DNA of 10,501 nucleotides from assembly GCA_018825725.1 (NCBI GenBank), contig JAHKBC010000190.1:1-10501 (forward strand). Reading direction: 5' to 3'. Each line of letters starts with the position of its first letter. Positions within the stretch are counted from its first letter, which is position 1. Below are positions 2,330 through 9,602 of the stretch, in pieces. This stretch comes from Candidatus Omnitrophota bacterium (GTDB lineage Bacteria; Omnitrophota; Gorgyraeia; Gygaellales; Profunditerraquicolaceae). Both the position numbers and the translations under genes were made by a program. Below the pieces are notes generated by a model. It saw only the letters and a list, made by a program, of their open reading frames with translations, was not told the origin of the DNA and did no database searches.

Positions 2330-3436
2330 ATGAAGAGCCTATTCGGTTTTATTATTATATTTGCGTTATTTCTGGGTTTGCTTTCTTTATGTTTTCTGAT
2401 TCCGCGGTTATCTGCGGAATTGCCTTCAAAAGAAGCCTTATTTTACCAGAAGCTTGAAAATAAAAATGTACAGTGCGGGCTTTGTCCTCGCAGATGTTTT
2501 ATTGCTTCTGGCAAAAGAGGGTATTGCGGAGTAAGAGAGAATCGTAACGGAACACTTTATGCTCTTACCTTTGCCAAGGCAGTTTCGGCGCATCCCAATG
2601 ACCCAATAGAGAAGAAGCCATTTTTTCATTTTCTTCCGGGAAGTTTTACTTTTTCCGTAGCTACTGCTGGGTGTAACCTGAAGTGTAAATTCTGTCAGAA
2701 TTGGGAGATTTCGCAGCGTACACCGGAAGAAGTGCAATTCAGTTATCTGGAACCCCGGGAATTAATCCAGGCAGTAAGAAAATCGGGCAGGAACATAATC
2801 GCCTATACTTATAGCGAGCCCACGATTTTCTTTGAATATATGTTAGAGACGGCAAAATTAGCCAAAGCCCAAGGCCTAATAAACGTAATGCATTCCAACG
2901 GTTTCATCAATGAGGAGCCGTTAAGAGAGCTGTGTAAATACCTGGATGGAGCGGATATCGATTTAAAAGGTTTCAGTGAGGAATATTATCAGAAGTTGTG
3001 CGAAGGAAGCTTAGAGCCGGTTTTAAAAAGCCTGAAAATATTAAAAGAGAATGGCGTGCATTTGGAAATTACCAACCTTATTTTACCGGGGTTTAATGAT
3101 AACCTGGAAGTAATCCGCCAGATGTGTGTATGGATAAAAGATAATCTTGGGGTGGATACACCCTTGCATTTGAGCCGTTTTCATCCGCAGTATCAACTAA
3201 TACATCTTAATCCTACGCCTTTGGAAACACTGGAGAAAGCCGGCGAAATTGCCAGGGATGTAGGTTTAAGATATGTTTATATTGGTAATCTTCCTACTGC
3301 CCAAGGAGAAAATACCTATTGCCCTAAGTGTAAAAAGATGGTTATTGGCCGTAAAGGATTTTTTGTGCTTGAGAATAATCTTATTAATGGAAGGTGCAAG
3401 TTTTGTGATGAGAAGATAGAGGGAATATGGCAATGA
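2330..3436 (+). CDS. amrS: AmmeMemoRadiSam system radical SAM enzyme AmrS, with N-terminal hydrophobic leader
   Basis: Radical S-adenosylmethionine enzyme of the AmmeMemoRadiSam system. The family always travels with MEMO and AMMECR1 partners, but its reaction is not established. The N-terminal cysteine cluster is C49-x2-C52-x3-C56 plus C66 (CGLCPRRC...GYCG). The radical SAM motif C115-NLK-C119-KF-C122 binds the [4Fe-4S] cluster. The TIM-barrel core follows, with SEPT (162-165) and DIDLKG (209-214). A C-terminal zinc-ribbon-like pair of CxxC motifs lies at 331-334 and 356-359. The oddity is residues 1-29: K2, then about 20 hydrophobic residues, then PRLSAE. This looks like a signal peptide or membrane anchor, whereas I would expect the conserved domain to begin near residue 34. 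No Shine-Dalgarno sequence precedes ATG 2330, and a TTG at 2420 (codon 31) would give a leaderless cytoplasmic form. It overlaps the next gene by up to 10 nt. Confidence 0.93.
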   Translation: MKSLFGFIIIFALFLGLLSLCFLIPRLSAELPSKEALFYQKLENKNVQCGLCPRRCFIASGKRGYCGVRENRNGTLYALTFAKAVSAHPNDPIEKKPFFHFLPGSFTFSVATAGCNLKCKFCQNWEISQRTPEEVQFSYLEPRELIQAVRKSGRNIIAYTYSEPTIFFEYMLETAKLAKAQGLINVMHSNGFINEEPLRELCKYLDGADIDLKGFSEEYYQKLCEGSLEPVLKSLKILKENGVHLEITNLILPGFNDNLEVIRQMCVWIKDNLGVDTPLHLSRFHPQYQLIHLNPTPLETLEKAGEIARDVGLRYVYIGNLPTAQGENTYCPKCKKMVIGRKGFFVLENNLINGRCKFCDEKIEGIWQ

Positions 3437-4929
3437 GATTAGCTAAGGTGATGTCTATTTTATTCCTGAGTTTGTGCCTGCCTGCCGGACAGGCAGGTTT
3501 CGTTGTTATTAATACATTTGCCCAGGAGATTAAACAGCCTAACGTGTCAGGCCAATTTTACCCCAGCAGCCCAATCGAACTTTTAGCAGTTGTCGATTCT
3601 TTTCTGGCCAAGGCTAACCCTGAGCCAATTAACGGCGAGATATTCGCGCTCATTGCTCCGCATGCTGGATATGATTATTCCGGGCTTGTTGCCGCCCATG
3701 GGTATAAACTTATTAAGGATAAACCTTACAAGACGGTTATTGTAATCGGCCTTAGCCACCAATTTGATTTTTCCGGTATTTCGGTTTATCCTCAGGGCAG
3801 ATTTCGTACTCCTTTGGGGGATATCGAAATTGACCGGGTCTTTACTCAAAAATTGCTGGATCAAGATCCTGAAATATTCTTCGAGCCTAGGGCTTTTAGC
3901 CATGAACATTCTGTTGAGGTGCAGCTGCCTTTTTTGCAGAGGGTGCTTAATGATTTTAAGATCGTGCCTGTGGTTATGGGTCAGACGAATTTTTTGTCCT
4001 GCAAAAAGTTTGCTGTCATACTTAAAAAAGCTATAGGAAGCCGCAGAGACGTATTAATAGTTGATTCTGTGGATATGTACCATGGTTATGATTATGTCGA
4101 GGCAGAGAAGATTGATAAAGAGACCGCTTCTTATATACTTAATTTAGATGCTGATGGTTTATATTACGGAATGCAACTCGGCACGCTGCAGCTTTGCGGA
4201 AGGGGTGGAAATTCCGTAGTCACTACGCTTATACTGGCTAAAGATCTAGGCCACAATACAGTCAAGATGCTTAAATACACAAATTCCGCTAAAGTTACTT
4301 CAAATCTAGGAAAGGGCGTATGGACTGTCGGCTATGGTAGTTTTGTTATCGACCAGGAGGGAGCGATGATGGATCTGAATATAAATCAAAAGAAAAGATT
4401 GCTGGAGATTGCCCGCGCATCGATCAAGGAATATTTAGATACCGGTAAAAGGCTTAAGGTAGAGGAGAATGATCCGGTTTTAAATAAAAGCCTAGGTGCA
4501 TTTGTTACCTTGCATAAACACAAAGAGCTGCGCGGTTGTATCGGTAATATGGTCGGTACTCAGGAATTATACCTGACTATACGGGATATGGCTATAGAGT
4601 CGGCTTTTAGCGACCCGCGGTTCCCATCATTGTCTAAAGACGAGTTGAAAGATATTGAAATTGAGGTATCGGTTTTATCACCACTAGAAAGAGTTGATTC
4701 TGCTGATAGTATACAGATGGGTGTGCATGGCGTATTGGTAAAAAAAGGTTTCAGAAGCGGGGTTTTCCTGCCGCAGGTAGCCACTGAAACCGGATGGTCA
4801 AAAGAGGAATTCTTAAATCATTTATGCGCCGGCAAGGCCGGATTGTCTCCTGATGCCTGGAAGGATAAAGCAACCGAGCTCTATACCTTTAAGGCCTTTG
4901 TATTCTCCGAGAAGGATATTAAATCCTGA
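3427..4929 (+). CDS. Fused MEMO-AMMECR1 protein (AmmeMemoRadiSam proteins B and A) with signal peptide
   Basis: A 500-aa two-domain fusion of the partner proteins of AmrS. Residues about 35-308 are a MEMO domain, related in fold to class III extradiol dioxygenases. Putative metal ligands comparable to those of human MEMO1 are all visible: H79 (PHAGY), H111 (GLSH), H219 (SVDMYH) and C257 (LCGRGG). Residues about 319-497 are an AMMECR1 domain, with LRGCIG (368-373), FSDPRF (394-399), IEVSVLSP (412-419) and FLPQVA (447-452). Residues 1-33 form a signal peptide-like leader with R4 and K7, then a hydrophobic core, then TFAQE. The core is interrupted by LPAGQAG (18-24), encoded by a 21-nt palindrome. 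The start is ATG 3427 or ATG 3433. The second gives an ATGA overlap with the amrS stop and better spacing from GAGGGA (3419-3424). Numbering here is from 3427. A strong internal ribosome site precedes M314, at the domain boundary. The catalytic role is unknown. Confidence 0.93.
   Translation: MAMRLAKVMSILFLSLCLPAGQAGFVVINTFAQEIKQPNVSGQFYPSSPIELLAVVDSFLAKANPEPINGEIFALIAPHAGYDYSGLVAAHGYKLIKDKPYKTVIVIGLSHQFDFSGISVYPQGRFRTPLGDIEIDRVFTQKLLDQDPEIFFEPRAFSHEHSVEVQLPFLQRVLNDFKIVPVVMGQTNFLSCKKFAVILKKAIGSRRDVLIVDSVDMYHGYDYVEAEKIDKETASYILNLDADGLYYGMQLGTLQLCGRGGNSVVTTLILAKDLGHNTVKMLKYTNSAKVTSNLGKGVWTVGYGSFVIDQEGAMMDLNINQKKRLLEIARASIKEYLDTGKRLKVEENDPVLNKSLGAFVTLHKHKELRGCIGNMVGTQELYLTIRDMAIESAFSDPRFPSLSKDELKDIEIEVSVLSPLERVDSADSIQMGVHGVLVKKGFRSGVFLPQVATETGWSKEEFLNHLCAGKAGLSPDAWKDKATELYTFKAFVFSEKDIKS
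3477..3497. repeat. 21-nt palindrome inserted in the signal peptide coding region
   Basis: CCTGCCTG (3477-3484) and CAGGCAGG (3490-3497) are perfect reverse complements around CCGGA. The 21 bases are exactly seven codons and add LPAGQAG to the hydrophobic core. Removing them restores a continuous LSLC-FVVINTFAQE leader with the frame intact. The block is visibly more G+C-rich than its surroundings. Short palindromes of this composition are, from general knowledge, scattered through some uncultured-lineage genomes. That attribution is from memory. Confidence 0.7.
4355..4368 (+). promoter_or_regulatory. Internal Shine-Dalgarno and ATG at the MEMO/AMMECR1 boundary
   Basis: AGGAGG (4355-4360) lies 5 nt before ATG at 4366, which is in frame (codon 314) and followed by a second ATG. 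Translation from here would give a 187-aa protein consisting of the complete AMMECR1 domain, which begins about 6 residues later. The position, spacing and strength are those of a normal gene start. This suggests either that the fusion arose by loss of a stop codon between two genes or that both products are still made. Confidence 0.6.
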
Positions 4930-5609
4930 TGTTGAAATTAAGCCTGACATTTTTTATTTATGGCCTATTGTTCGGCGTGGGGCCATGCTTGGCCAGCTGC
5001 GGGCCTTTGCTTGTAGCTTATTTTTCCGGTTCATCCAAGAATATCTTGATGAGTTTGTTGGAATACGCTTATTTTTCCCTAGCTAAAATCCTGGCCTATT
5101 TACTTATTACGCTGAGTGTTTTTAGTATCGGTAAGGTTGCCGCCAGGCATATTATCGGTGAATATTCAGTATATATCTTTATTGTCGGCGGAATCTTTAT
5201 TATTCTAGTGGGCTTATCTATGATTGTTCCTTTAGGCTCAATTACTTTCGAAGAAGGTAAAAATAAAATTTTCGACAGATTAACCAAATTTATTAAAAGG
5301 GAGGTTCTGCCTAAATCCAATAAGATGACTATAATAATTTTAGGGTTGCTTATTGGTTTATTGCCGTGCCTGCCGCTTCTTACTATTGCCAGCTATATTG
5401 GCCTTGCTTCTTCTCACTGGACAGAAAGTATTCTTTATGGCCTTGCATTCGGATTAGGGACAAGCCTATCTCCGCTTGTAATGCTGGTTTTCTTTTCCGG
5501 GATGATTTCACGCTTTGTAAGGAGCAAGAATTATGCTCGCGTATTTCGTATTGTCTGCGGCCTGATAATCATATTCCTGGGTTTTAAATTAATCGGCGGA
5601 GGTTTTTAA
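4929..5609 (+). CDS. Polytopic membrane protein, TauE/SafE / DsbD-CcdA-like
   Basis: A 226-aa membrane protein with about six hydrophobic segments arranged as two related halves, separated by a charged loop (about 106-133). The first half has GVGPCLASCGPLL (16-28, Cys20 and Cys24) in its first helix. The second has LLPCLPLL (144-151, Cys147). This pattern resembles the DsbD/CcdA transmembrane domain and the DsbD_2/UreH-like TauE/SafE group. In CcdA and DsbD, one cysteine in each half carries thiol electrons from cytoplasmic thioredoxin across the membrane. Cys20 and Cys147 would be the equivalent pair; Cys24 is extra. The start codon overlaps the preceding stop (TGATG), which indicates translational coupling to the MEMO-AMMECR1 gene and suggests a joint role. 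Function could instead be small-anion or metal export. The fold class is fairly secure; the substrate is not. Confidence 0.75.
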   Translation: MLKLSLTFFIYGLLFGVGPCLASCGPLLVAYFSGSSKNILMSLLEYAYFSLAKILAYLLITLSVFSIGKVAARHIIGEYSVYIFIVGGIFIILVGLSMIVPLGSITFEEGKNKIFDRLTKFIKREVLPKSNKMTIIILGLLIGLLPCLPLLTIASYIGLASSHWTESILYGLAFGLGTSLSPLVMLVFFSGMISRFVRSKNYARVFRIVCGLIIIFLGFKLIGGGF

Positions 5610-6344
5610 ATGCCTGTGTTTTATTGTTTGAATAAGAATATTGTCCAGGACAAAATAAGCATTACGGATATTGGGCAGCTCCACCATATTAAGAATGTCC
5701 TGCGAATTAAGGCTAATGAGTTGGTGACTATATTTGATGAAAAGGGTAACCGCTATGAAGTTTTTCTCCAAGAGGCCTTTAAAGATTATGTTAACTTTCG
5801 CATTGTTAATATTGAGATAGTTCAGCAAGCATCTTTACCCAGGTTGACCTTAGCTTGTGCCATACCCAAGAAGACAACTATGGATGATATTGTTAGTAAG
5901 CTAACCCAACTGGGAGTAGATAGTATAATACCTATGCAAACCAAACGGGTAGTGATAAAGTTGGATAATGCTAAAAAATTGGCCAAGTTAAAACGCTGGG
6001 AAAAAATAGCTTATTCTTCAAGCCAGCAGAGCCAGAGGAGAATTCCTCCTGTGATTAGCTCAATCCAGAGCATTGAAGAGGTTACGGCTAATGCCGGAAA
6101 TTTTGACTTGAGGATAATGCCTGTTTTAACGGGAAATCGAAAAAATCTTAAAGATCTATTTGTATCTGGTAATCCAATAAATGTAATTGTTTTAATCGGC
6201 CCGGAGGGTGATTTTACTCTGGACGAAATCTGCCTAGCCCAAAAAAACGGCTTTATAGCCGTTAATTTAGGTGCCAATGTTTTACGGGTAGAGACTGCAG
6301 CTTGCGCAGTTGCCAGTTTTATCAGGTTATATGCCAACCATTAA
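5610..6344 (+). CDS. rsmE: 16S rRNA (uracil(1498)-N(3))-methyltransferase RsmE
   Basis: A SPOUT-class methyltransferase of 244 aa, the usual length for the family, which uses SAM to methylate N3 of U1498 in 16S rRNA. The N-terminal PUA-like part includes HHIKNVLR (25-32). The family signature continues with IPKKTTMDDIVSKLTQLGV (85-103), W130 and SSQQSQRRIP (137-146). The knotted SAM-binding region has IGPEGD (196-201) and LGANVLRVETA (220-230). GGAGG (5598-5602) lies 7 nt before the ATG, and the start directly abuts the preceding TAA, so the gene is cotranscribed with the AmmeMemoRadiSam genes. Its link to them is probably only operon membership. It overlaps mtaB by 14 nt. Confidence 0.95.
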   Translation: MPVFYCLNKNIVQDKISITDIGQLHHIKNVLRIKANELVTIFDEKGNRYEVFLQEAFKDYVNFRIVNIEIVQQASLPRLTLACAIPKKTTMDDIVSKLTQLGVDSIIPMQTKRVVIKLDNAKKLAKLKRWEKIAYSSSQQSQRRIPPVISSIQSIEEVTANAGNFDLRIMPVLTGNRKNLKDLFVSGNPINVIVLIGPEGDFTLDEICLAQKNGFIAVNLGANVLRVETAACAVASFIRLYANH

Positions 6345-7596
6345 ATTTATTACTTTAGGATGCAAAGTCAACCAGTATGAAACCCAGGCAATCCGGGAAC
6401 AGTTTAAAAAAGCCGGTTACCAGGAAGAAGAGTTGTTTGCTCCGGCAGATGCCTACTTGATAAATACCTGCACAGTTACCAATAAAGCTGACAGCGAATC
6501 TCTGTATTATGTAAGAAATTCCCTGCGCCAGAACCCCCAGGCCAAAATTATCGTTACCGGCTGCCTTACTGAGCATGACGCCAGAAAAATATCCCAGATT
6601 GACTGCAGGATTATTATCATAAGGAATAAAGATAAATATAGAATAGCATCTTTATTGGTTAAAGGAGCTAGTACAAAAGATGAGGGGATAAGTGATTTTA
6701 AAGGGCATACCCGGGCTTTTCTCAAGATCCAGGATGGCTGTGATAACTTTTGTTCATATTGCAAGGTTCCTCTGGTAAGGGGTAGTTCCAGAAGTAAGTC
6801 CTGGAATAGGATTATCCAGGAGGCTCAGCGTCTGGTTAGGCAGGGTTTTAAAGAGATAGTCTTAACCGGAATCTGTTTAGGTTCGTATGGCAAAGACTTA
6901 GGTAAAGGTAGAGGTAGAGATTTGGTAAGCGTGATTGAAGAGTTGGAGAAGATAGAAGGGCTTTTGCGCATCAGGTTAAGCTCAATAGAATTTAAATATG
7001 TTTCATCGAGGCTCCTAAGAAAAATGCAAGTTTCAACTAAGCTTTGCCGGCATCTGCATATGCCTATGCAAAGCGGAGATAATAATATACTTAAGGCAAT
7101 GAATCGTAAATATACGGCTGAAGATTTTCTGGTGATGGTGAATAGAATAAAGAAAATTTTGCCCGGAGTAGCTATTACTACTGATATCCTGGTGGGGTTT
7201 CCTCTGGAAGAAGAGGGTAACTTTTTAAATACTCTAGAATTGGTCAAAAAGATCAAACCTTTAAAAGTACACATCTTTCCCTATAGCCCCAGGCCCGGGA
7301 CAAAAGCCTGCAAGCTTGCTCAGAAAAACAAGCCCGGCATTGTTAAAGAGAGGATTTTAAGGCTTCGCCAGGCAGCCCAAGCTTGCTGCCGGGATTATCT
7401 AAAAGATTTTATAGGCAAAAAGAAAAGGGTTCTTTTTGAGGCTAGAATCAAGGAACGTCCATATTTTTGGCAGGGGTATACGGATAATTATATACATGTC
7501 TATTTGAAATCAAGTGATGACCTTAGCAACAAGTTTCTAAATGTGAGGTTGCTTAAGGTTCACTTGGATTCTCTGGAAGCTGTCTTGGATAAGTAG
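6331..7596 (+). CDS. mtaB: tRNA (N6-L-threonylcarbamoyladenosine(37)-C2)-methylthiotransferase MtaB
   Basis: A 421-aa radical SAM methylthiotransferase that converts t6A37 to ms2t6A37 in tRNAs reading ANN codons. The N-terminal domain supplies three cysteines for the auxiliary [4Fe-4S] cluster: C11 (TLGCKVNQYET), C47 (NTCTVT) and C78 (VTGCLTE). The radical SAM motif is C137-DNF-C141-SY-C144 in IQDGCDNFCSYC. Downstream motifs are HLHMPMQSGD (241-250) and TDILVGFP (284-291). Residues about 362-420 fit a TRAM RNA-binding domain. I chose ATG 6331 because conserved family sequence starts at once (MPTIKFITLGCKVNQ). The upstream in-frame TTG at 6310 adds seven unconserved residues. The gene starts inside the last codons of rsmE, with only a weak AGG ahead, so it is probably translationally coupled. 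The TAG stop ends the first operon-like unit. Confidence 0.95.
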   Translation: MPTIKFITLGCKVNQYETQAIREQFKKAGYQEEELFAPADAYLINTCTVTNKADSESLYYVRNSLRQNPQAKIIVTGCLTEHDARKISQIDCRIIIIRNKDKYRIASLLVKGASTKDEGISDFKGHTRAFLKIQDGCDNFCSYCKVPLVRGSSRSKSWNRIIQEAQRLVRQGFKEIVLTGICLGSYGKDLGKGRGRDLVSVIEELEKIEGLLRIRLSSIEFKYVSSRLLRKMQVSTKLCRHLHMPMQSGDNNILKAMNRKYTAEDFLVMVNRIKKILPGVAITTDILVGFPLEEEGNFLNTLELVKKIKPLKVHIFPYSPRPGTKACKLAQKNKPGIVKERILRLRQAAQACCRDYLKDFIGKKKRVLFEARIKERPYFWQGYTDNYIHVYLKSSDDLSNKFLNVRLLKVHLDSLEAVLDK

Positions 7597-7870: not shown

Positions 7871-8794
7871 ATGCCTCTGGCTATTTCAACCTCTTGGAAT
7901 GCTTTCCGGCATAAGCAGGCTCTAGCAATAGTTGATGAGTTAAAGGATTTAGGTTTTAATGCAATAGAATTAAGTTTCAATCTCACTCCTTCCATAGTTA
8001 AAGACATAGAGAAGTTAGTCCGAAATAATAAGATAAGCGTTGTCAGCCTGCATAATTACTGCCCCATACCTGAAGGATTTAATAGGGTTGAGGCTTTGCC
8101 TGATTGCTTATCGCTTTCTTCTTTGGATGAAGAAGAAAGGGTTTTGGCTGTAAAGCAGACTAAGCATACTATAGATAATGCGCGCAAGCTGGCTGCTCGG
8201 GCAGTAGTCTTACATTGCGGCAGGGTAGAGATAGCTGATCGAACCAGGGATTTAATCTCTCTTTATCAATTAGGCGATAAAGGCTCTGGAACCTATAAAA
8301 AGATTAAGCAGTGTTTCATACAGTCCCGGGAAAAACAAAAAAAACCGTTCTTTGAAAATATTTTACGCAGTTTAGATGAATTAAATAGTTATGCCATTAA
8401 ATGTGGTATCAAACTGGGGGTAGAGAATAGGTTTTATTATCGCGAGATACCCTCTTGGGAAGAAATAGGGTATATTTTGGAGAAATTTAAGGGATCCGGC
8501 GTATGCTATTGGCACGATGTTGGCCATGCTCAAGTAATGGAGAATCTGGGTTTTAACAGTCATATTGATTTTCTTAATTCCTATAGCCGGCGTATGCTGG
8601 GGATGCACCTGCATGATATAATAGGTTGTCAAGATCATCAGGCAATCGGTAAAGGCAATCTGGATCTTAGGCATATTACCAGTTATCTGCCAGAAGATGC
8701 TTTGAGGGTTGTTGAGATTCATGGTCAGGCTAAGGCAGACGAGATAAAGCTGAGCCGTTCTTTTTTAGAGGAAATATTCCATGGGCGCTCCTAA
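7871..8794 (+). CDS. Sugar phosphate isomerase/epimerase-like TIM-barrel protein
   Basis: A 307-aa protein of the xylose isomerase-like TIM-barrel superfamily (AP endonuclease 2 fold, which includes sugar isomerases/epimerases and endonuclease IV). The strand-end residues that usually bind metal and substrate are present: E33 (AIELS), H61 (VVSLHNY), H115 (VVLHCG), E185 (GVENR), D216 and H219 (YWHDVGHA), H246 and H248 (GMHLHD), D255 and H256 (DHQAIGKGNLD), and E282 and H284 (VVEIHG). This pattern of E, D/H, H and E suggests an active divalent-metal enzyme. The substrate cannot be deduced, and an endonuclease IV-like repair role is less likely than isomerase or epimerase. AGAAGG at the end of rpsU precedes the ATG by 4 nt, so translation is coupled to rpsU. 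It overlaps the following MEMO gene by 14 nt. No signal peptide is seen. Confidence 0.85.
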   Translation: MPLAISTSWNAFRHKQALAIVDELKDLGFNAIELSFNLTPSIVKDIEKLVRNNKISVVSLHNYCPIPEGFNRVEALPDCLSLSSLDEEERVLAVKQTKHTIDNARKLAARAVVLHCGRVEIADRTRDLISLYQLGDKGSGTYKKIKQCFIQSREKQKKPFFENILRSLDELNSYAIKCGIKLGVENRFYYREIPSWEEIGYILEKFKGSGVCYWHDVGHAQVMENLGFNSHIDFLNSYSRRMLGMHLHDIIGCQDHQAIGKGNLDLRHITSYLPEDALRVVEIHGQAKADEIKLSRSFLEEIFHGRS

Positions 8795-9602
8795 AGTAAG
8801 AAAGGCTACTCAGGCCGGCGCATTTTATCCGGCTCAAGCCTCAGATATCAAGAAGATGATCGCGCAGTTTTTAGGGCCTGAGCTGCCAAAAGAAGAAGCA
8901 ATCGGTTGTCTTATGCCCCATGCCGGCTATATCTATTCCGGTAAGATTGCTGTTCGTACTGCTTCCCGAGTCAGGATTAAAGATAAAGTAATTCTTATTG
9001 GGCCTAACCATACTGGTTACGGCAGAGAGTTCAGCCTGATGTCAGAGGGGATATGGCAGACTCCATTAGGAGAAGTAAATATTGATTCTGGGCTATCCAG
9101 GGAGATATTAGGAGGATGTCCATTACTTAAAGAAGATGAAACGGCTCACCTTTACGAACATTCCCTGGAGGTAGAGCTGCCTATTTTGCAGTATTTCCGC
9201 AACGACTTTGAGATTGTTCCGTTGATTATCGGTTCAAATAATAAGGAATCACTTAAGCAGATAGGCATTGATATAGCCGGTGTTATCAGTAATAATAACC
9301 TTAAAGATAAGGTTTTAATTATAGCCAGCTCTGATATGACCCATTATGAAGCGCATGATAAAGCTGAATATAAAGACAAGCAGGCCATCTCTGCGATATT
9401 GGATCTTGATGAGGATAGGTTAGCTGAGAAAGTATCAGATTTGGAAATTTCTATGTGCGGCTATGCCCCGGCAATGATCATGCTTACGGCAGCCAAGCTT
9501 CTGGGGGCGCTAAAGGCGGAACTTATTGGTTACCAGACTAGCGCAGATGTTAGCGGAGATTTCAAGAGCGTTGTAGGTTATGCTGGCATCATAATTAAAT
9601 AG
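8781..9602 (+). CDS. amrB: Stand-alone MEMO family protein (AmmeMemoRadiSam system protein B)
   Basis: A 273-aa single-domain MEMO protein, normal family length, with no signal peptide and hence probably cytoplasmic. Putative metal ligands are H47 (MPHAGY), H77 (GPNHTG), H188 (SSDMTHYE) and C226 (SMCGYAP), matching those proposed for human MEMO1. EHSLEVELP (126-134) is also typical. It is a diverged paralogue of the MEMO half of the fusion protein at 3427-4929. For example, SSDMTHYE here corresponds to SVDMYHGY there. AGAGGAA (8767-8773) lies 7 nt before the ATG, inside the preceding isomerase gene, with a 14-nt overlap. No AMMECR1 or radical SAM partner adjoins this copy. It may share AmrS from the neighbouring unit or have an independent role. 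The biochemical function of bacterial MEMO proteins is unsettled. Confidence 0.92.
   Translation: MGAPKVRKATQAGAFYPAQASDIKKMIAQFLGPELPKEEAIGCLMPHAGYIYSGKIAVRTASRVRIKDKVILIGPNHTGYGREFSLMSEGIWQTPLGEVNIDSGLSREILGGCPLLKEDETAHLYEHSLEVELPILQYFRNDFEIVPLIIGSNNKESLKQIGIDIAGVISNNNLKDKVLIIASSDMTHYEAHDKAEYKDKQAISAILDLDEDRLAEKVSDLEISMCGYAPAMIMLTAAKLLGALKAELIGYQTSADVSGDFKSVVGYAGIIIK

Follow-up and report, generated by a model that had tools for sequence, protein, structure and literature searches.

We report that a three-gene module in a 10,501-nucleotide stretch of DNA from a Candidatus Omnitrophota bacterium (contig JAHKBC010000190.1 of assembly GCA_018825725.1, analyzed at its full length and referred to as the window) is likely the Omnitrophota form of an extracytoplasmic AmmeMemoRadiSam system, in which a CcdA-like membrane protein of the DsbD_2 family would supply reducing equivalents. 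The three genes overlap or abut and encode the radical S-adenosylmethionine (SAM) enzyme AmrS, a MEMO-AMMECR1 fusion protein and the DsbD_2 protein; rsmE and mtaB follow directly. The sequence basis of this interpretation consists of export-type leaders, a clade split within AmrS, intact catalytic residues, gene linkage, the pairing of one leader type with DsbD_2, and gene fusion. From these features we infer the final location of the proteins, the direction of electron flow, the use of SAM outside the cytoplasm and action on a substrate in the envelope. As already noted in a first-pass annotation of the stretch, radical SAM enzymes are normally cytoplasmic and their export would be unusual; they are regarded as such because SAM, low-potential electrons and iron-sulfur cluster assembly all reside in the cytoplasm.

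The window corresponds to one contig (C322) of a metagenome-derived genome of 1.57 Mb that is 81% complete. Its core features are:

2330..3436, + strand: amrS, AmmeMemoRadiSam radical SAM enzyme with export-type leader (368 aa; TIGR04337, 357.7 bits; member of the export clade)
2330..2416, + strand: AmrS leader, residues 1-29 (Lys2, ~22 hydrophobic residues including Cys21, possible cleavage LSA/E; slashes mark cleavage points)
2672..2695, + strand: radical SAM cluster motif C115-x3-C119-x2-C122 (conserved cysteines)
3427..4929, + strand: MEMO-AMMECR1 fusion with Sec-type signal peptide (500 aa; TIGR04336 and TIGR04335, PF01875 and PF01871)
3427..3522, + strand: fusion signal peptide, residues 1-32, possible cleavage TFA/QE (by-eye reading)
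3532..4350, + strand: MEMO domain (His79, His111 and Cys257 corresponding to MEMO1 metal ligands)
4396..4905, + strand: AMMECR1 domain with invariant R369-G-C371-x-G (alignment of 101 fusions)
4929..5609, + strand: DsbD_2 (CcdA-like) six-helix membrane protein (226 aa; PF13386; Cys20 and Cys24 in helix 1, Cys147 in helix 4)

The first-pass annotation had described hydrophobic leaders ahead of the conserved domains of AmrS and the fusion protein, and the open reading frames, the domain starts and the leaders on 68 of 108 AmrS proteins from the same family confirm this. Window AmrS exceeds the TIGR04337 cut-off (357.7 versus 220 bits) with a match that begins at residue 38. Its leader, MKSLFGFIIIFALFLGLLSLCFLIPRLSA/E, starts with MKSLFGF and contains a hydrophobic run of 22 residues, and no twin-arginine motif (RR or KR) was found in it; the fusion leader is MAMRLAKVMSILFLSLCLPAGQAGFVVINTFA/QE, both cleavage points being by-eye readings. 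Judged by eye and by charge count, both proteins display the pattern of a Sec signal, with a positively charged n-region, a hydrophobic h-region and a small residue at position -1. Homologues of window AmrS with assigned names belong mostly to Candidatus Omnitrophota, with a single one from Margulisiibacteriota.

AmrS genes were compared in two sets. The family set comprises 108 classified AmrS genes from 140 regions fetched from genomes of the window's GTDB family, a part of all AmrS genes in that family. The named set comprises 80 loci from many phyla, found by scanning GTDB species genomes with an AmrS of the twin-arginine translocation (Tat) type as the starting point; since these are the loci most similar to a Tat-type AmrS, fractions within this set do not reflect prevalence. 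Leader classes were assigned by our own rules and then corrected by hand: six named loci were reclassified as ambiguous, L219 as leaderless and L229 as Tat, and ten leaders that the rules had called Tat were moved to Sec. The family set contained 66 Sec-type or membrane-anchor leaders, two Tat leaders (loci L040 and L044) and 40 leaderless proteins; among the latter, L045 and L099 stem from leader-type genes with a broken or truncated frame. The named set contained 42 Tat (30 RR, 11 KR and one RK motif), 14 Sec-type, 18 leaderless and six ambiguous proteins.

In a FastTree phylogeny of 189 rows (rows with <280 domain residues or long runs of X were omitted, and five rows duplicate others, since the named loci include contigs from family genomes), a branch with a support of 99 separated 50 rows, all of them leaderless, from 139 rows with 81 Sec, 44 Tat, eight leaderless and six ambiguous members. 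Window AmrS falls on the export side of this branch, where the eight leaderless rows are five Bacteroidales proteins, two archaeal proteins and the truncated L099. Leader class therefore appears to be largely a property of the clade. The intact leaderless AmrS proteins of the family form a separate clade and, within 3.5 kb, lack genes for a MEMO-AMMECR1 fusion, a SpeE-like protein or a DsbD-like protein, and for these two reasons look like a distinct cytoplasmic paralogue. Leaderless homologues from the same lineage, named in the first-pass annotation as potential counterevidence, thus do exist (40/108), but as the intact ones belong to another clade they do not speak against export of the leadered form. 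The genome of the window itself encodes such a second AmrS (C267:1312-2322), which starts with MKEALLYDKL and has no leader. On that contig (L002, 229-2322) the leaderless gene adjoins two further genes, which appear to encode a nicotinamidase and an Rrf2-type regulator.

The catalytic core is preserved on both sides of the split: the CxxxCxxC motif is kept in 125/125 leadered and 50/50 cytoplasmic-clade proteins, and a TYxEP stretch is invariant in eight aligned leadered AmrS. Among the matches listed, the longer, leader-bearing class attains the top TIGR04337 scores of the family, which together with the complete retention of CxxxCxxC indicates that the core is under the same constraint. Two positions distinguish the classes, namely Cys266 (106/125 export-class versus 1/50 cytoplasmic-clade proteins) and Trp268 (125/125 versus 4/50).

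Among 80 Sec-type AmrS leaders, net charge was higher on the N-terminal than on the C-terminal side of the hydrophobic stretch in 71, equal in nine and lower in none, a positive bias that favors a cytoplasmic N terminus and a catalytic domain outside. Some relatives carry plain, cleavable-looking signal peptides, such as PAQA/QE in L039 and VYA/QD in L070. Of 104 close homologues that have a residue in the column of window Cys21 (2390-2392), 90 share this leader cysteine, and any leader cysteine occurs in 33/49 Sec-type AmrS with a nearby fusion gene and 10/31 without. We assign no function to it because it is missing from many Sec-type leaders. A lipoprotein leader was considered for window-type AmrS and rejected, as the common cysteine often follows bulky residues and no strict lipobox is formed.

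Sec-type leaders occur mostly in lineages where TatC was not detected. TatC exceeded the cut-off in nine of 108 family genomes, including both with a Tat-type AmrS, and gave any match at all in six of 50 high-quality family genomes; most members of this Omnitrophota family thus seem to lack the Tat pathway. No TatC was found in the window's 81% complete genome, and seven TatC-bearing family genomes still possess a Sec-type AmrS. Across 50 named genomes, which cover 36 of the 42 with Tat leaders, TatC was present in 34/36 with a Tat-type and 5/14 with a Sec-type AmrS. At four loci (L040, L044, L190 and L202), tatC and amrS are no more than 3.5 kb apart.

The MEMO-AMMECR1 fusion matches TIGR04336 at residues 36-308 (232.1 bits, cut-off 26) and TIGR04335 at residues 324-493 (187.9 bits, cut-off 99). 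Its AlphaFold2 model (predicted local distance difference test score, pLDDT, 94.7) gave structural matches to MEMO1 (7kq8) and to the AMMECR1 fold (1zq7 and 1vaj). The iron and copper ligands of MEMO1 given in PMC11081632 are H49, H81 and C244, to which His79, His111 and Cys257 of the fusion correspond; all three are conserved at ≥0.99 in 101 fusions, with both histidines placed by alignment and Cys257, beyond the alignment's end, by pattern only. Cys371 of the AMMECR1 domain is conserved at 1.0 in the same set. A leader was present in 103 of 107 scored fusions, the exceptions being L219, L224, L231 and the truncated L249, and lipobox-like words occurred in 11 of the 103. Within the family, AMMECR1 was found in 81/108 genomes, nearly always once. 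Of 84 AMMECR1 matches, 70 belong to reading frames about as long as the MEMO fusion (~490-570 codons), and most of the rest are near contig ends. A 19-bp GC palindrome (3478-3496) lies within the signal-peptide coding region of the window's fusion gene, where it specifies part of CLPAGQAG; the genome contains it twice more, once exactly and once with a mismatch.

The fusion is linked to exported AmrS by position, by genome content and by leader type. A fusion gene lies within 3.5 kb of 43/66 Sec-type but 0/40 leaderless AmrS genes of the family, and near 26/42 named Tat-type genes. Family genomes with an exported AmrS carry the fusion (AMMECR1) gene in 64/69 cases versus 17/39 without (p = 3e-8, among the matches listed), a test that rests on hand-typed lists taken partly from those matches, from which four genomes with only soluble-domain hits were dropped, to whose exported group G000, G087 and G094 were added, and in which seven unlisted genomes were placed by elimination. 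At named loci, the intact fusion is leadered in 27/27 cases with a leadered AmrS and 2/5 with a leaderless one (p = 0.002, hand-typed table leaving out partial fusions and L198 and L228, whose AmrS is ambiguous). The three leaderless exceptions L219, L224 and L231 are Bacteroidales loci in which AmrS and fusion both lack leaders, as if both proteins had changed location together.

The third gene had been described in the first-pass annotation as coupled to the fusion gene by a TGATG overlap and as encoding the CcdA/DsbD-like cysteines Cys20 and Cys147. The overlap is found at 4927-4931, and an alignment of 27 DsbD_2 proteins shows no variation at either cysteine, nor at Cys24, which had not been named. 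The window protein matches PF13386 (91.1 bits, cut-off 24.9) and gave no match to DsbD_TM (PF02683) at an E value of 0.001. CcdA-like carriers are defined by cysteines in helix 1 and helix 4, each beside a proline, and the 27 proteins show this arrangement with invariant P19-C20 and P146-C147-x-P149 in the respective helices. The AlphaFold2 model (pLDDT 81.8) returned CcdA (5vkv) as the top Foldseek match, with a probability of 0.95 but an E value of 0.14. The charge pattern of the window protein is N-out/C-out, and the 27 sequences carry on average 10.4 positive residues in loops 1, 3 and 5 versus 2.1 in loops 2 and 4.

Co-occurrence of the leaders with this membrane gene, a check proposed in the first-pass annotation, was observed for Sec-type AmrS. 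A screen with two profiles within 3.5 kb of amrS detected a DsbD-like gene at 12/14 Sec-type, 0/42 Tat-type and 0/18 leaderless loci of the named set, and at 55/66, 0/2 and 2/40 loci of the family set, the latter two being the degraded leader-type genes L045 and L099. The contrast between named Sec and Tat loci is pronounced (Fisher 1.6e-10, with kinship ignored), and the DsbD-like neighbors of Sec-type AmrS occur in varied gene orders and phyla. The second profile also catches L226, whose protein at L226:4473-5798 contains FMN_bind and Fer4_5 and no DsbD_2; the Sec and Tat counts are unaffected by it because L226 is in the ambiguous group (2/6 with a match, the other being the fusion L240).

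DsbD_2 and AmrS are joined in single proteins in at least two genomes, at L240:5179-7005 on a Lentisphaeria contig and at L263 (G271:C65:87028-88890). In the L240 protein, the N terminus and five inter-helix loops carry 0, 4, 0, 3, 0 and 5 positive residues; as these charges start the chain outside and six helices precede AmrS, the AmrS part is predicted to lie outside as well. Single DsbD_2-FMN_bind-Fer4_5 proteins are encoded directly before a Sec-type amrS at L200:4069-5814, L203:1744-3435 and L207:4075-5742. The first-pass proposal of a membrane-bound or extracytoplasmic system fed by thiol electrons is therefore partly borne out: comparison supports the location and the carrier link well, through Tat signals on related AmrS, shared leaders within loci, DsbD_2-like genes near Sec-type AmrS and natural fusions, and its electron-transfer role stays a prediction.

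A further recurrent partner is a SpeE-like membrane protein of ~700-820 residues with a PF01564 domain (identified by Pfam in four examples). Its gene lies within 3.5 kb of 24/66 Sec-type AmrS genes of the family, either it or the fusion gene is near 65/66, and it was present within 2.5 kb in 28/31 Sec-type loci without a nearby fusion. In the named set it lies within 3.5 kb in 24/42 Tat loci, where the fusion gene often comes first, followed by the membrane protein gene and then amrS. Counted by family genome, it occurs in 60/69 with an exported AmrS versus 11/39 without, among the matches listed and on the same hand-typed lists as above. Consensus hydropathy of 51 such proteins gave 14 helices, with 15.7 positive residues in short loops on the N-terminal side versus 5.4 on the other, which places a 309-column enzyme-like domain on the outer side, an estimate that depends on the helix count. 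Judging from these predictions, the spermidine-synthase-like domain of the 14-helix partner appears to be located outside.

We propose the following mechanism. AmrS and the MEMO-AMMECR1 fusion would pass through the inner membrane or stay anchored at it, and their catalytic domains would face outward. In the Tat form, found in many bacteria and some archaea, AmrS would be exported folded with its iron-sulfur clusters, while in the Sec form it would have to fold and load its clusters outside, with DsbD_2 providing a supply of thiols or electrons. DsbD_2 may keep the 11 conserved cysteines of AmrS and those of AMMECR1 and MEMO reduced for cluster and metal loading, and perhaps feeds AmrS directly; since thiols alone are too weak, turnover would need a second route of lower potential or a DsbD_2 protein with a flavin or iron-sulfur partner. 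AmrS and the fusion would then act jointly on an envelope substrate, and the SpeE-like protein is a candidate source of SAM because its SAM-type fold appears to lie outside. A broader reading, which we put forward tentatively and hold at somewhat below even chance, combines three elements: a radical SAM lineage of ancient origin that acts outside the cytoplasm in bacteria and some archaea; a supply or presentation of SAM, or of one of its derivatives, on the outward-facing side of the membrane, perhaps through the 14-helix spermidine-synthase-like protein; and electrons or thiols provided by Tat-preloaded clusters or by DsbD_2-like flavin-linked carriers that are sometimes fused to AmrS. If true, an export branch spanning many phyla raises the question of how SAM chemistry runs outside the cell interior, and it would offer a handle on AmmeMemoRadiSam function, given that MEMO and AMMECR1 have human homologues of unclear function. 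The pairing of leader and DsbD_2 also yields a testable prediction on how Sec-exported iron-sulfur proteins are kept reduced.

Several points weigh against an extracytoplasmic system. Radical SAM chemistry requires SAM and a low-potential electron, and we know of neither outside the cytoplasm; thiols are too weak as a reductant of the radical SAM cluster, Sec exports unfolded proteins, and to our knowledge no periplasmic iron-sulfur assembly has been described. Neither TatC nor the SpeE-like partner was detected in the 81% complete genome that contains the window, and L220 and L237 combine a leadered fusion with a leaderless AmrS. Seventeen of 108 family genomes (for example G050, G074, G089 and G090) have AMMECR1 and no exported AmrS among the fetched loci, so that AmrS and AMMECR1 need not act together; the fusions fetched from 11 of these genomes are leadered. 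The pairing of Sec leaders with DsbD_2 comprises few independent switches (two pairs on supported branches, five on all branches); the two supported pairs changed the same way 1.7 times on average, the opposite way 0 times and showed no difference 0.3 times, and with so few switches the pairing is not significant after accounting for phylogeny. The two-profile screen found no DsbD-like gene near the Sec-type loci L191 and L212, and the G271 fusion adds no topology evidence because the hydropathy rule recovered five of its six helices, the sixth being under threshold. The leader classes behind these comparisons come from our own rules with hand corrections.

A rival arrangement is a Sec-type AmrS that is anchored in the membrane with its catalytic domain in the cytoplasm, where SAM, low-potential electrons and cluster assembly are found, and with only MEMO-AMMECR1 and part of DsbD_2 outside. 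The long 22-residue hydrophobic run and the leader cysteine shared by 90/104 close homologues would suit an uncleaved helix. We nevertheless regard this arrangement as unlikely: the N-in/C-out charge bias holds in 71/80 leaders and is reversed in none, Sec rows share one clade with 44 Tat rows, AmrS in the L240 fusion follows six helices that start outside, and the leaders of L039 and L070 look cleavable. A cytoplasm-facing anchor had been offered as the alternative in the first-pass annotation; leader charge and L240 topology lower its standing, yet it may apply to the window protein. Another possibility is that the proteins are exported and AmrS serves as a periplasmic iron-sulfur electron carrier or as a metal donor for the MEMO site, without radical SAM chemistry. 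We know of no SAM pool outside. The intact site of two histidines and one cysteine in its partner and the linked redox membrane protein agree with such a role, but it is hard to reconcile with the retention of CxxxCxxC in 125/125 proteins, the invariant TYxEP in eight leadered AmrS and the top family TIGR04337 scores of the leadered class among the matches listed, and we consider it similarly improbable.

DsbD_2-type proteins are not bound to one job, and rsmE and mtaB are frequent neighbors without an obvious link, so the DsbD_2 gene might be a chance or housekeeping neighbor that serves general cytochrome or disulfide chemistry. Its presence at 12/14 Sec-type loci across gene orders and phyla versus 0/42 named Tat-type loci, the fused genes in at least two genomes and the DsbD_2-FMN_bind-Fer4_5 proteins directly before amrS in L200, L203 and L207 leave us with little expectation that this is so. 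Least of all do we expect the leaders to be start-codon artefacts with native starts near residues 31-34. Window AmrS has in-frame TTG triplets at codons 17 and 31, and leaderless paralogues start with ATG at the matching place; these paralogues, however, belong to another clade, both Tat motifs and the hallmarks of signal peptides are seen repeatedly in different phyla, and in 75/124 leadered AmrS a late start is impossible, as no ATG, GTG or TTG occurs 8-26 codons before the first domain cysteine. On the strength of these homologues the artefact was ruled out as the source of the leaders, and an extracytoplasmic system with DsbD_2 as its reductant supply is the interpretation that we retain.

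Outside the core, the window contains genes that we do not assign to the system:

5610..7596, + strand: rsmE and mtaB, two ordinary genes of RNA modification (often found downstream)

Both are probably unrelated to its function, because the same genes trail the fusion gene even where amrS is not adjacent. A second MEMO gene in the window (8781-9602) is leaderless and without AMMECR1, and another leaderless MEMO of the same genome is located on contig C9. The gene at 8781-9602 adjoins an AP_endonuc_2 TIM-barrel protein and a DUF1844 gene, and a MEMO2-type gene also lies behind an AP2 gene in L071 and L102. The sole full-length AMMECR1 of the genome is that of the fusion. A second match at the end of contig C248 (L114) was discarded, as it is a short segment resembling the AMMECR1 sequence of the window and is probably an assembly artefact; it runs into an apparent endonuclease III gene on the opposite strand. 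A tRNA-Ala (CGC) gene at 2014-2087 (region 1989-2110) is flanked on either side by the same 23-bp palindrome, AAAATTTTACTGCGTAAAATTTT, of which just these two copies exist in the assembled genome with up to two mismatches allowed.

The components belong to known families, whereas none of the papers listed in our literature searches described an extracytoplasmic branch, Tat and Sec forms of it or a link to DsbD_2, which are new in that sense. No report of an exported or Tat-borne radical SAM enzyme or of AmmeMemoRadiSam export was among the papers listed, and Burroughs 2019, the main comparative paper on Memo-family dioxygenases, which is named in PMC7694686 and lies outside the searched literature, may say more. 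The accessible part of PMC10924467 names just a neighboring radical SAM gene. The PF01564 spermidine-synthase-like membrane proteins with 14 predicted helices are recurrent partners at AmrS loci; the window differs in that no such gene was found in its genome. MEMO1 is regarded as an intracellular protein. The human iron and copper protein resembles the MEMO half of the fusion in fold and in its 2-His-1-Cys metal site (PMC11081632), whereas the window protein is predicted to be exported and is fused to AMMECR1. The extracytosolic flavinylation systems presented in PMC8238504 include NapH-like and DsbD types in which DsbD-type carriers feed extracytosolic redox proteins, and the DsbD_2-FMN_bind-Fer4_5 proteins beside Sec-type AmrS in L200, L203 and L207 resemble them; the words radical, spermidine, AMMECR1 and Memo had no hits in the main text of that paper, and FMN_bind had no match in the nine window proteins scanned. 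With the CcdA/DsbD carriers the window protein shares six predicted helices, the cysteines of helix 1 (GPC) and helix 4 (PCxP) and PF13386; thiol-disulfide electron transfer is its putative role. The closest known system is AmmeMemoRadiSam itself (TIGR04335, TIGR04336 and TIGR04337): all three components exceed their cut-offs, their genes are adjacent and the catalytic residues are intact, and the form described here differs from it in the export leaders on AmrS and the fusion, the coupled DsbD_2 gene and a separate clade marked by Cys266 and Trp268.

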